DNA of 64,000 nucleotides from Cetobacterium sp. NK01 (lineage in GTDB: Bacteria; Fusobacteriota; Fusobacteriia; Fusobacteriales; Fusobacteriaceae): NCBI RefSeq assembly GCF_024506395.1, contig NZ_JANIBO010000001.1, forward strand, positions 124,001-188,000, written 5' to 3'. This document shows positions 10,644 through 61,946 of this stretch, piece after piece. Made by a program: the position numbers and the translations under genes. The notes under the pieces are model-generated. The model saw nothing but the letters and a program-made list of their open reading frames with translations. It made no database searches and was not told where the DNA came from. Every line of letters begins with the position of its first letter. The first letter of the stretch is position 1.

Positions 10644-10699
10644 AAAAAACCTCCTAAAATTATCAAAAATAATAATTATTTTTAATACCTTAAAAATAA

Positions 10700-10727
10700 A
10701 CTACATATAATGTTAATTATATGTAGT
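10700..10727. other. Candidate dif/Xer recombination site (28-bp, 11-6-11 palindrome)
   Basis: The left arm ACTACATATAA (10700-10710) and right arm TTATATGTAGT (10717-10727) are perfect inverted copies around the 6-bp centre TGTTAA. Symmetry stops exactly after 11 bp. Chromosomal dif sites have this layout: two 11-bp Xer-binding arms, a 6-bp centre, and inner ATAA/TTAT ends. It lies 79 bp downstream of a Xer-type recombinase gene. The stem has only two GC pairs, poor for a terminator, although a T-rich stretch follows on the - strand, so a weak terminator is the alternative. Confidence 0.55.
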
Positions 10728-10733
10728 ACTCTT

Positions 10734-10756
10734 ACGAAAATAACTGTTATTTTCGT
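10734..10756. repeat. Second perfect palindrome beside the dif-like site
   Basis: Arms ACGAAAATAA (10734-10743) and TTATTTTCGT (10747-10756) flank a 3-bp centre CTG. It starts 6 bp after the 28-bp palindrome and shares its inner ATAA/TTAT. It could be an accessory protein-binding site or a transcript-end hairpin of the recombinase gene; no T-run follows on either strand. Confidence 0.5.
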
Positions 10757-10806
10757 TAAAATTATTTTTAATATTGTGTAATTATATAATTAATACTGCA
10801 ATTAAG

Positions 10807-11793
10807 TTAATCATCCATAGATTGTACAGGTATTTTATCAAGCACCTTTTTTTCAATTAATGATTTAGCATTTATATAAACCTCTGTAACTTTAGTGTCT
10901 GAATGCCCTAAAAAGTCTCTAATCTCAATTAAATCTGCTCCGTTTAATGAAAGTTCCGTTGCAATAGCATGACGAATATTATGGGGACTAATCTCTTTGT
11001 TTATAACTTGTCCCATTTCTTGGACTACATTATAAAGTGCTCTATATGAAAGAGGTCTATTTTTTTCAAAAGAACTGCAAAATAAATATCTTTCATCTAA
11101 CTCCTCTTCATCTATTCCATAGACATTAATTAAATAATTTTTATAGTCATCAATCTTATTTATTAAAAAATTATGTAATGGTTTATATTGTTCTCTTCCA
11201 CTTTTAGTTTTTTCCAACTTCACAAAATATTCACCATTTCTTTTTAGTATATGTTTAAATTGTAAAGAGAGAAGTTCTTGGCTTCTCATTCCTGTATAAA
11301 ATAGAGTATGAAGAATAACTGTGTTTCTATATTCTTTCTCTCCATTTATTTTATAATTTTTTAAAATCTCTTTTATATCATCAAAAGACACTTTTAATAT
11401 GTTATCTAAATTTCTTGATGTTTTAAAAAGTCCAATATATTTAAAAGGATTATCATACCCATTTTTTTCTAACTCTTTGTAAAGAGATTTTAAAGATGAG
11501 ATAACTTTGTTCACAGAAGTTTTCTTCATTTCTCTTTCGTTTATAAGATGAGAAAGATAGTCCTCTATATCACTTTTTTCTATTCCTGTCATAAGTTCAA
11601 TTATCTCATCTCCCTCTATAGGAGAATCTCCATCATAAACATAAGTTAAGAAATCTTTTAAATAGAAAAAATAATCTTTCATAGTTTTAGGAGATTTATA
11701 TATTTCAAATATACTTTTCTTTTCCTCTTTATTTTTTCTCTTTCTACGCTGGGTACTTATTTCATGTTTTTCTTTAATAGCTATCTCGTTCAA
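10807..11793 (-). CDS. Tyrosine recombinase, Xer-like
   Basis: 328 residues. The N-terminal SAM-like core-binding domain spans about 30-125, and the catalytic domain about 135-320. All catalytic residues are present: R170 (YTGMRSQELL), K197, H271 and R274 (SPHNIRHAIATEL), H297 (FLGHSDTKVTEVYIN) and Tyr306. No phage-type arm-binding domain is seen. The gene lies 50 nt downstream of rsuA on the same strand, not in a mobile element, which argues for a chromosome-dimer resolvase rather than an integrase. A dif-like palindrome lies just beyond its stop. Whether it is the organism's only Xer cannot be told. Confidence 0.85.
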   Translation of the reverse strand: MNEIAIKEKHEISTQRRKRKNKEEKKSIFEIYKSPKTMKDYFFYLKDFLTYVYDGDSPIEGDEIIELMTGIEKSDIEDYLSHLINEREMKKTSVNKVISSLKSLYKELEKNGYDNPFKYIGLFKTSRNLDNILKVSFDDIKEILKNYKINGEKEYRNTVILHTLFYTGMRSQELLSLQFKHILKRNGEYFVKLEKTKSGREQYKPLHNFLINKIDDYKNYLINVYGIDEEELDERYLFCSSFEKNRPLSYRALYNVVQEMGQVINKEISPHNIRHAIATELSLNGADLIEIRDFLGHSDTKVTEVYINAKSLIEKKVLDKIPVQSMDD

Positions 11794-23971: not shown

Positions 23972-24712
23972 ATGAAACTATTTTTTTCCCCTAGCAAGGG
24001 GATGAATTATAAAAATTGTAAGTACAATATAGAGAATCTAGAATTAGATCAAAATTTTAAGGATAAAGCAGATTACTTAGTATCTGTTTTAAAAAGTTTC
24101 TCAAAAGAGGAGACTGGTAAGAAATTGAAAATCAAAGATAAAATACTCGATGATGTTTATGATCTTTATCAGAATTTTTATGAGAAAAAGGAGAGAGAAG
24201 CTATCTGTCTTTATGATGGCGTTAGTTATAAACAAATCCATGTGGAAAATTTTTCAGAAAAAAAATTTGAGTATATGAAAGAAAATGTATTTATATTTTC
24301 AGCCCTATACGGGGTTATGAATGCTACAACTTTGATAAGACCTTATCGTCTTGATATGACAAACAAAATACTACCTATTTCACCTTACGAATTTTGGAAA
24401 AATGAAGTTGAAAACTATTTATCTAAATTCAAAGATGATATCTTTATCAATCTAGCTTCTAATGAATTTTCAAAAATATTAAATAAAAAACTTTTTAACA
24501 TTATAGATATAGAGTTTAGACAACTTGATAGAGATAAAGTTAAAAATATCAGTACAGAAGCCAAAAAAGCTAGAGGATCTCTATTGAATTATATTATAGT
24601 AAATGAAATTCATAACCTTGAAGACATTAAAAAATTTGATCTTTTAGATTACAGTTTCTCTCAAGAATTTTCCTCAGAAAAAAGCATGTTTTTTATAAAA
24701 AAAATAGGTTAG
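23972..24712 (+). CDS. yaaA: Peroxide-stress protein YaaA (DUF328/UPF0246)
   Basis: 246 residues. It starts KLFFSPSKGMNY, the YaaA signature with the conserved SP-K-M pattern. It retains ALYGVMNATTLIRPYRLDM, FINLASNEF and KKARGSLLNYIIVN, all family motifs that line a DNA-binding helix-hairpin-helix-like cavity in E. coli YaaA. In E. coli it lowers free iron under H2O2 stress; this function is inferred here. Single gene; its 3' end overlaps the terminator shared with the convergent CrtI-like gene. Confidence 0.9.
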   Translation: MKLFFSPSKGMNYKNCKYNIENLELDQNFKDKADYLVSVLKSFSKEETGKKLKIKDKILDDVYDLYQNFYEKKEREAICLYDGVSYKQIHVENFSEKKFEYMKENVFIFSALYGVMNATTLIRPYRLDMTNKILPISPYEFWKNEVENYLSKFKDDIFINLASNEFSKILNKKLFNIIDIEFRQLDRDKVKNISTEAKKARGSLLNYIIVNEIHNLEDIKKFDLLDYSFSQEFSSEKSMFFIKKIG

Positions 24713-58037: not shown

Positions 58038-58059
58038 GTTGCAAAAGTAAATATATTCA

Positions 58060-58122
58060 TTCGTATAAGTTGCAAATATGGTGCAGCGTCTCTACAACTA
58101 ACCGTAAATTAGTTTCTATGAA
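58060..58122 (+). promoter_or_regulatory. Purine (guanine-class) riboswitch upstream of guaA
   Basis: All purine-aptamer parts are present: P1 TTCGTA/TATGAA (58060-58065, 58117-58122), TATAA at the J1/2 side, P2 GTTGCA/TGCAGC around loop AATATGG, J2/3 TCTCTAC, and P3 AACTAA/TTAGTT around loop CCGTAAA. The specificity position in J3/1 is C (TCTATG), which predicts guanine rather than adenine. It should reduce guaA expression when guanine is plentiful. Sequence 58123-58200 includes two T-runs (58152-58158, 58177-58183) and a short AGAG/CTCT hairpin, a possible terminator that I cannot fold with confidence. Confidence 0.87.
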
Positions 58123-58203
58123 AAAGATAAAAGGGATTAGTCTACCTTCTGTTTTTTTATAGAGTAAGATTGTCTCTTTTTTTATTATATTTTGGAGGTT
58201 TTT

Positions 58204-60878: not shown

Positions 60879-61946
60879 ATGCCTGCAACTAAGGATAAGA
60901 ACGGGACTTGGGTGTCCCGTTTCTATTATGTAGATTATCAAGGAAATAGATTAAGAACTTTTAAGAGAGGTTTTAAAACTAAAAGGGATGCTCTTGAATA
61001 TGAAAGAGAGTTTTTATCTAAGTATAAATTTGAAGTTACTATGACATTTAAAAGCCTATATGAACTTTATATAGATGATTTAAGTCATAGATTAAGAGAA
61101 CATACTATCATAAACAAAAAATATATAATTGAAATGAAAATTCTACCATTTTTTAAAAATATGAAACTTAATGATATTACTCCAGTTATAGTTAGAAAAT
61201 GGCAAAACGAACTTTTAAAAGCTATAAACCCAAGCAGTGGAAATCCATATAGTCAAACCTATATTAAAACTATTCACAATCAACTTACAGCTATTTTTAA
61301 CTATGCTATTAAGTTTCATTCATTACAAGAAAACCCTTGCCATAAAGCTGGAAGTATTGGAAAGAAACATGCTGAGGAAATGAATATCTGGACTCCAGAA
61401 GAATTTAAATTATTTATTGAAACTCTTAAGGATCACCCCGCTGCTTATGTAGGATTTAATATTTTGTTCTGGTGTGGTCTTAGAGTTGGAGAGCTCCTAG
61501 CTCTTGAAATAAAAGATATTGATTTTGAAAATGAAACTTTAAATATTAATAAGTCTTATCAGAGATTAAATAAAGAGGATGTAATTACTGAGCCTAAGAC
61601 TCCTAAGAGTAAAAGAATCATCGAAATGCCTTCTCAGTTAATTCCTGTACTAAAGGATTATCTCAAGACACTTTATAAACCAAAACCTAGTACAAGATTG
61701 ATTCCTCATACTAAATATATTTTTGAACATGCTATGAAAAAATATTCAGAAATTGCTGGAGTAAAAAAAATAAGGATACATGATCTTAGACATTCACATG
61801 CATCCTTACTTATTCATTTAGGTGTTAATCCTCTTACTATTGCTAGAAGATTGGGGCACGAAAAGGTTGAAACAACCTTAAATACTTACTCTCATCTATT
61901 TCCTAATAGCAATAAGGAGATGATGGAGCTGCTGAAAAGGATATAA
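60879..61946 (+). CDS. Phage/ICE-type tyrosine integrase
   Basis: 355 residues. The N-terminal arm-binding domain (about 1-50, KDKNGTWVSRFYYVDYQGN) is of the AP2-like kind, with a SAM-like core-binding domain at about 55-155 and a catalytic domain at about 170-345. Catalytic residues are all present: R202 (CGLRVGELLAL), K243, H301 and R304 (IHDLRHSHASLL), H327 (RRLGHEKVETT) and Tyr337. Together with the excisionase-like gene it marks a mobile element. It reads away from guaA. No complete attachment repeat is visible in the window. Confidence 0.95.
   Translation: MPATKDKNGTWVSRFYYVDYQGNRLRTFKRGFKTKRDALEYEREFLSKYKFEVTMTFKSLYELYIDDLSHRLREHTIINKKYIIEMKILPFFKNMKLNDITPVIVRKWQNELLKAINPSSGNPYSQTYIKTIHNQLTAIFNYAIKFHSLQENPCHKAGSIGKKHAEEMNIWTPEEFKLFIETLKDHPAAYVGFNILFWCGLRVGELLALEIKDIDFENETLNINKSYQRLNKEDVITEPKTPKSKRIIEMPSQLIPVLKDYLKTLYKPKPSTRLIPHTKYIFEHAMKKYSEIAGVKKIRIHDLRHSHASLLIHLGVNPLTIARRLGHEKVETTLNTYSHLFPNSNKEMMELLKRI

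Follow-up and report, generated by a model that had tools for sequence, protein, structure and literature searches.

A candidate dif site beside a single Xer-type recombinase gene in Cetobacterium and other Fusobacteriaceae, a family in which no credible FtsK motor was found

Several single-recombinase systems have been described, and we compare with them a 28-bp inverted repeat lying beside the gene of a Xer-type tyrosine recombinase in Cetobacterium sp. NK01 (contig NZ_JANIBO010000001.1, positions 124,001 to 188,000; this whole stretch of 64,000 nucleotides is called the window). We propose, from sequence comparisons, that this 28-mer is very probably the chromosome-dimer resolution (dif) site of its host, that the adjacent Xer protein of 328 amino acids (aa) is the sole active recombinase, and that this FtsK-independent system has replaced XerC, XerD and the gamma domain of FtsK. 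Archaeal XerA/dif (Thermococcales, Sulfolobales) shares with the window system a single recombinase, an 11-6-11 site at the terminus, a genome without FtsK, and AT-rich flanks with inverted repeats (PMC2958812). The window system differs in being bacterial, in a protein that scores 122.7 on the XerA model against a cut-off of 220, in a site that lies beside the gene in most genomes, and in its apparent derivation by replacement of XerCD/FtsK, remains of which persist. XerL/dif of Legionellales likewise combines a single recombinase with long uninterrupted arms (10 and 12 bp for XerL) and a mobile element at the site, so that the perfect arms of the window site have a precedent there (PMC9765430). 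In L. pneumophila, however, more than 400 kb separate gene and site and an FtsK homologue is present (PMC9765430; compared by description only).

In streptococci and lactococci, XerS/difSL also places a single recombinase beside its site (PMC5357621), but the site has 31 bp with an 11-bp centre, XerS has 356 aa and the reaction is FtsK-dependent (PMC3025954); the window site has 28 bp, and its protein scores 78.2 against the XerS cut-off of 267. XerH/difH of Helicobacter and Campylobacter is similar in having a single recombinase near the site (PMC5357621) and in the fold of the protein, whereas XerH has 354-362 aa and depends on FtsK (PMC5357621), and its profile match in the PDB covers only residues 134-307 of the window protein, the catalytic half; the NCBIfam scan of the protein listed no XerH model. 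The plasmid sites cer and psi, which are recombined by XerCD with PepA and ArgR/ArcA, are a precedent of another kind, in that accessory DNA flanking the core could stand in for FtsK (PMC5357621); they differ in being plasmid sites with two recombinases and about 180 bp of accessory DNA. Finally, the window site resembles Cre/lox in its identical arms and asymmetric centre. A literature search turned up no paper describing a dif site or the loss of FtsK in fusobacteria. A term search through PMC3025954 and PMC5357621 (main text) did not find a fusobacterial dif named, and in the excerpts of PMC8138268 and PMC13342612 Fusobacteria come up solely in other connections.

An earlier note, made from the letters of the window alone, had described a perfect 11-6-11 site with a TGTTAA centre at 10700-10727, 79 bp past the stop codon of the recombinase gene, and the coordinates agree with this description. 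The features of the locus are the following.

10700 to 10710, plus strand: predicted left recombinase-binding arm, ACTACATATAA, half of a perfect inverted repeat
10711 to 10716, plus strand: predicted central 6-bp strand-exchange region, TGTTAA (TTAACA on the gene strand), its role taken from Cre/lox and Xer logic
10717 to 10727, plus strand: predicted right recombinase-binding arm, TTATATGTAGT, half of a perfect inverted repeat
10741 to 10749, no strand assigned: accessory dyad TAACTGTTA, at -22 in the TTAACA orientation, a TAAnnnTTA match
10670 to 10678, no strand assigned: accessory dyad TAATAATTA, at +22 in the TTAACA orientation, a TAAnnnTTA match
10807 to 11793, minus strand: gene of the single Xer-type tyrosine recombinase, 328 aa, recognised by its domains and catalytic residues

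The 28-mer ACTACATATAA-TGTTAA-TTATATGTAGT has the layout of a dif site: 28 bp, two 11-bp arms, a 6-bp centre, and ATAA/TTAT as the inner ends of the arms. The arms form a perfect 11-bp inverted repeat and the symmetry stops at 11 bp, the bases just outside (A and A) being unpaired. The centre is the sole asymmetric part and, by analogy, would set the polarity of the crossover. Perfect 11-6-11 palindromes are overrepresented in the window, with eight observed against 0.13 expected from Markov shuffles; most of the seven others look like terminator hairpins when judged by eye. Symmetry of this kind is by itself weak evidence for a dif site, and it is conservation, uniqueness and position that distinguish the 28-mer. 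The other seven lie at 24702, 27123, 33803, 34614, 35751, 38675 and 50865.

The earlier note had named three marks by which a dif site could be recognised, namely a single copy per genome, a location at the terminus and conservation beside the same gene in relatives, and each of them was found. The host assembly is a draft of 3.10 Mb in 8 contigs, with the window on a contig of 1.91 Mb. Allowing up to three mismatches, the 28-mer occurs once in this genome, and the 17 of 98 Fusobacteriota genomes that match it at the same threshold carry exactly one copy each. Sampled GC skew along the host contig changes from positive to negative between about 132 and about 144 kb, and the site is at 134.7 kb; the opposite switch is near 1.0 Mb of the contig. 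The site also lies at the skew switch in three closed genomes, where its distance from the sampled origin switch is about 49% (G037), 50% (G015) and 57% (G025) of the way round. In G037 the gene (1165 kb) and the site (1143 kb) are 22 kb apart. Between 1122 and 1142 kb the skew there is close to zero, and from 1145 kb onwards it is negative for the most part, with one positive 5-kb bin next to the gene; the lasting change in skew tracks the site, not the gene.

Sites in relatives were chosen by the exact core ATATAA-N6-TTATAT within 600 bp of the recombinase gene, and 36 of 52 loci contained one, with 24 distinct sequences. The centre is TTAACA in 25 of these 36 sites, and in several genera the outer arms have changed in pairs (for example ACCAC/GTGGT and ACTAA/TTAGT). 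The distance from gene to site ranges from 67 to 556 bp, reaching 4.3 kb in G002 and the 22 kb of G037. Fusobacterium vincentii SB055 carries a perfect 11-6-11 site, ACTGCATATAATGTTAATTATATGCAGT, about 0.36 kb from the gene and flipped relative to it; this is the only exact core in a closed 2.1-Mb record that was deposited as a plasmid and that we take for the chromosome. One variant was found in G020, whose sequence (L105:1260-1560) is 98.6-99% identical to that of G021 (L038) in the region around the site, with a 46-bp stretch holding the site inverted. The inverted site has a 7-bp centre, ATTTTAA, and is possibly disabled. In viral contigs the exact 28-mer had no match; the 18-bp core had six, none with symmetric outer arms, and we judged these to be chance matches.

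One genome, G054, contains what would be the strongest indirect sign of recombination at the site. In its site nearer to the recombinase gene, the left arm and the centre are normal and the right arm is foreign; 9.14 kb beyond this half-site stands a perfect one, with the following feature between them.

L267, 163 to 9330 (G054): 9.14-kb phage-like element between the half-site and the intact dif

The relative G059 holds a single empty site. The element encodes proteins of 492, 629, 327 and 280 aa without family matches and one DUF1353 protein; no recombinase was found among its nine open reading frames of at least 92 aa. From its sequence, this layout resembles that of integrative elements that exploit Xer. 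A relative of the 492-aa protein is present in G053, where no site was found within the 20 kb read.

The domain search supported the earlier note's description of a recombinase without an arm-binding domain: the 328-aa protein contains a SAM-like core-binding domain and a Phage_integrase domain (3.6e-27) only. Its catalytic residues are R170, K197, H271, R274, H297 and Y306, and this R-K-H-R-H-Y set is complete in all 52 loci examined of the 55 orthologs. Orthologs (E <= 3.3e-61) were found in 55/61 Fusobacteriaceae and in 0/37 other Fusobacteriota genomes, where the best matches are only about 30% identical; the six Fusobacteriaceae genomes without one are drafts of 62-94% completeness. The protein misses the curated equivalog cut-offs of XerD (120.4 against 329.6) and XerC (114.5 against 335.2) as well as those of XerA (NF040815) and XerS (NF003462) given above, and by curated score is thus outside all four families. 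In a tree of 52 rows the new recombinases form one clade (support 100/100) on a long branch, apart from both older Xer lineages. The closest public records are from Cetobacterium (76-93% identical), with wider relatives in Fusobacterium gastrosuis, F. mortiferum, Propionigenium maris and Psychrilyobacter. The sole record outside Fusobacteriaceae above 35% identity (L342, 41%) comes from a 3.5-kb contig binned as Aliarcobacter; it falls inside the Fusobacteriaceae clade in the tree, and the contig is probably misbinned. A metagenome-assembled genome of Legionellales gave one match of 24% identity. The recombinase was not found in viral contigs, phage records matched at 29.5% at best, and the one close match in a plasmid record is the 2.1-Mb F. 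vincentii record. In the PDB, the best matches by sequence and by fold are archaeal XerA. The AlphaFold model (mean predicted local distance difference test score, pLDDT, 82.9; predicted template modelling score, pTM, 0.69) matches the folds of XerA, XerH, integron integrase and Cre, and tells us nothing further about mechanism.

Two older Xer genes are present in the host and have relatives across Fusobacteriota. X2 (XerC-like) lies between trmFO-like and GTPase genes and X8 (XerD-like) between recN-like and era genes, the neighbours being named from their translations.

L008, 1411 to 2202, and L002, 1156 to 2058, with their orthologs: catalytically inactive Xer descendants

An XerCD pair elsewhere in the genome was what the earlier note had said would speak against a single-recombinase system. 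XerC-like and XerD-like genes do exist, but in the host neither protein has the full catalytic set; in the XerC-like one the first catalytic arginine is gone (GIT replaces GLR), as is the aligned lysine. The window recombinase is the one catalytically complete protein among the host's three Xer-type proteins, and the single-recombinase proposal gains strength because the other two lack catalytic residues. In ten sampled genomes of other families, the XerC-like and the XerD-like protein each have R-K-H-R-H-Y in 10/10. In Fusobacteriaceae, the XerD-like protein retains R-H-R-H-Y at 0/39 loci, and the XerC-like protein retains the aligned lysine at 2/41. The decayed proteins nest inside the X2 and X8 clades of the 52-row tree and are therefore vertical descendants. 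For eight pairs of inactive Xer proteins, nonsynonymous divergence (dN) was 0.03-0.14 against a synonymous divergence (dS) of 0.52-1.0, the four XerC-like pairs giving 0.03-0.11 and 0.53-0.97. By these estimates the inactive descendants are not drifting; they are under purifying selection.

A credible FtsK motor domain was found in 37/37 other Fusobacteriota genomes (E <= 1.4e-40) and in 0/61 Fusobacteriaceae genomes. The only comparable match in the family is a 1639-aa frame in G002, which from its size alone we take for a type VII secretion ATPase, and the remaining matches are at 4.9e-9 or weaker. The FtsK gamma domain was present in 37/37 of the others against 1/61 Fusobacteriaceae, the latter a partial match of 31 bits in G044. 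The canonical XerCD/dif/FtsK arrangement, with both XerC and XerD active and an FtsK carrying gamma, was thus not found. As judged from these searches, gain of the new Xer, decay of XerC and XerD and loss of FtsK coincide at the level of the family. Placement of a canonical dif was tried in two genomes of other families. In G092 the best canonical-like candidate was AAGTCCGATAATGTATCTTATGTAATTT at 656394, at the skew switch; in G084 no lasting switch was seen in the 200 kb read, and a canonical dif could not be placed there.

These results would fit the following course of events. Each of the identical arms would take up one of two identical Xer monomers, two sites occupied in this way on a dimeric chromosome would pair, and strands would be exchanged around the asymmetric 6-bp centre as in Cre/lox, turning the dimer into two monomers. 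The new system would have displaced the ancestral XerC/XerD/FtsK-gamma system, whose XerC and XerD descendants persist, mostly inactive. As FtsK is gone and cannot align or activate, control is therefore probably local, through conserved dyads that would bind an accessory protein. We infer binding, strand exchange, FtsK independence in vivo and the role of the dyads from the comparisons given here.

The dyads were recognised when 43 sites were aligned by the orientation of their centre (TTAACA). The motif TAAnnnTTA begins at exactly -22 in 32/43 sites and at +22 or +23 in 31/43, both dyads being present in 28/43. In letter-shuffled flanks, a given position matched in a mean of 0.24 of 35 rows (maximum 3), and at several positions of the upstream dyad column information exceeded the maximum of 300 row-shift permutations. 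Neighbouring rows within a genus are related, and shared ancestry inflates these counts, which are not of independent events. The -22 dyad spans g1, g2, g4, g5, g6, g11 and F. vincentii, where the dyads remain with the site that is flipped against the gene. All g14 sites (3/3) have the dyad at -31, among them the intact site of G054, where this flank belongs to the inserted element. One or both dyads are missing from sites of g3, g8 and g12. From the window coordinates, the dyad centres are about 31.5 and 40 bp from the site centre, roughly three and four helical turns, and the -22 dyad at 10741-10749 is the inner part of an 11-1-11 palindrome (10735-10757).

This conservation suggests that the functional site exceeds 28 bp and includes the flanking dyads. 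In FtsK-free archaea, dif was reported to be flanked by inverted repeats and by conserved AT-rich stretches of about 23 bp (PMC2958812), a suggestive parallel to the fusobacterial dyads. A refinement of the dif proposal would be that an accessory protein acting on the TAAnnnTTA dyads controls recombination without FtsK, possibly with the inactive XerC and XerD descendants as architectural proteins. In favour of such control are the fixed spacing on both sides, the dyads that accompany the flipped F. vincentii site and recur at the same offset on the element side in G054, the purifying selection on the inactive Xer proteins and the archaeal flanks; it is weakened by the sites lacking dyads, by the inflation of counts within genera and by the want of a known dyad-binding protein. 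We consider it a serious possibility, if one towards which we are slightly sceptical. More tentative still, and in our opinion rather unlikely in its full form, is the wider proposal that Fusobacteriaceae resolve dimers without an FtsK-type translocase by means of one Xer acting on an extended dif, where a dyad-bound accessory protein, and not FtsK, would select the productive synapses; for this role the inactive XerC and XerD descendants would suggest themselves.

Several observations weigh against the identification of the 28-mer as the dif site of a single recombinase. The inner ATATAA and TTATAT are invariant in 24/24 distinct sites, but this set was selected on that very core and the invariance is not independent evidence. 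No site was present within 600 bp of the gene at 16 of the 52 loci. Six of these 16 are truncated by contig ends (53-266 bp available), among them G040, whose site is on another contig; in G002, G037 and G043 the site is farther from the gene, in G036 it is on another contig, G020 has the altered inverted site of 29 bp and in G054 the site is split by the element. In G033, G038, G041 and G053 a convincing site was not found. The replication arms of the host look unequal (about 0.9 against 2.2 Mb, in a draft assembly with skew of contigs C2-C8 sampled sparsely). The XerC-like protein retains R-H-R-H-Y at 8/41 Fusobacteriaceae loci and could be a partner in those genera. Lastly, when the minus strand is read, TTTATTTTT follows the palindrome on its 3' side, as in a terminator.

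The XerC-like protein is the basis of another explanation, a two-recombinase system in which one arm would be served by the new Xer and the second arm by the XerC-like protein. The intact sets just mentioned and the purifying selection measured on four XerC-like pairs speak for it. The identical arms of the host site, the compensated arm changes in relatives and the loss of the first arginine and the aligned lysine from the host protein argue against it, and we regard it as very unlikely. It is highly improbable that the recombinase is a domesticated or resident integrase of a mobile element, with its attachment site, which has no housekeeping part in dimer resolution. Its gene does adjoin the site as in integrating elements, is confined to one family and falls below all the curated Xer cut-offs; against this, nearly all genomes of the family have an ortholog (the exceptions being the incomplete drafts), the orthologs form one clade without an arm-binding domain, the site is at the skew switch and the other two Xer proteins have lost catalysis. 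Given its long branch, the recombinase may nevertheless have a remote mobile ancestry. The possibility that the palindrome is the intrinsic terminator of the recombinase gene and like dif in appearance only can be dismissed with similar assurance: the 11-bp stem followed by TTTATTTTT and the terminator-like look of most other 11-6-11 palindromes in the window would suit it, but what is conserved is sequence and not pairing, as the core and the would-be loop TTAACA persist where the outer stem is broken (7 or 8 of 11 pairs in G032, G030 and G034), and the site is flipped in F. vincentii, varies widely in its distance from the gene and occurs as one copy per genome, at the terminus.

A whole family, among whose members are commensals and pathogens of humans and fish, appears to have lost FtsK and disabled XerC and XerD while retaining a dif site. 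Such a system would make it possible to test directly what governs dimer resolution when no DNA motor works at the septum; how the reaction is controlled in the absence of FtsK is the central question, and an answer should be sought in the dyads. It also bears on a possible convergence of bacteria and archaea on accessory sequences where FtsK is lacking. The decay of a two-enzyme system after takeover by one enzyme can be followed through intermediate stages in living genera, and the site would serve as a landmark of the terminus and as a target of integrating elements.

A second loss was noted in the same family. The DnaA domain PF00308 was found at E < 1e-40 in 36/37 other Fusobacteriota against 0/61 Fusobacteriaceae genomes, in which matches were at 3.4e-12 or worse and mostly in short frames sized like IstB/DnaC-like ATPases. 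A host dnaA, sought as an origin marker, was not found. Fusobacteriaceae without DnaA raise the question of how replication starts.

Apart from the three Xer-type proteins, the host has four Phage_integrase matches, three in short frames and one in the window. The latter is a second full-size tyrosine recombinase (60879-61946, 355 aa), integrase-like with an N-terminal extension and 50 kb from the site, which probably belongs to an integrated element. The window also contains a purine riboswitch at 58041-58138 (60.7 bits).
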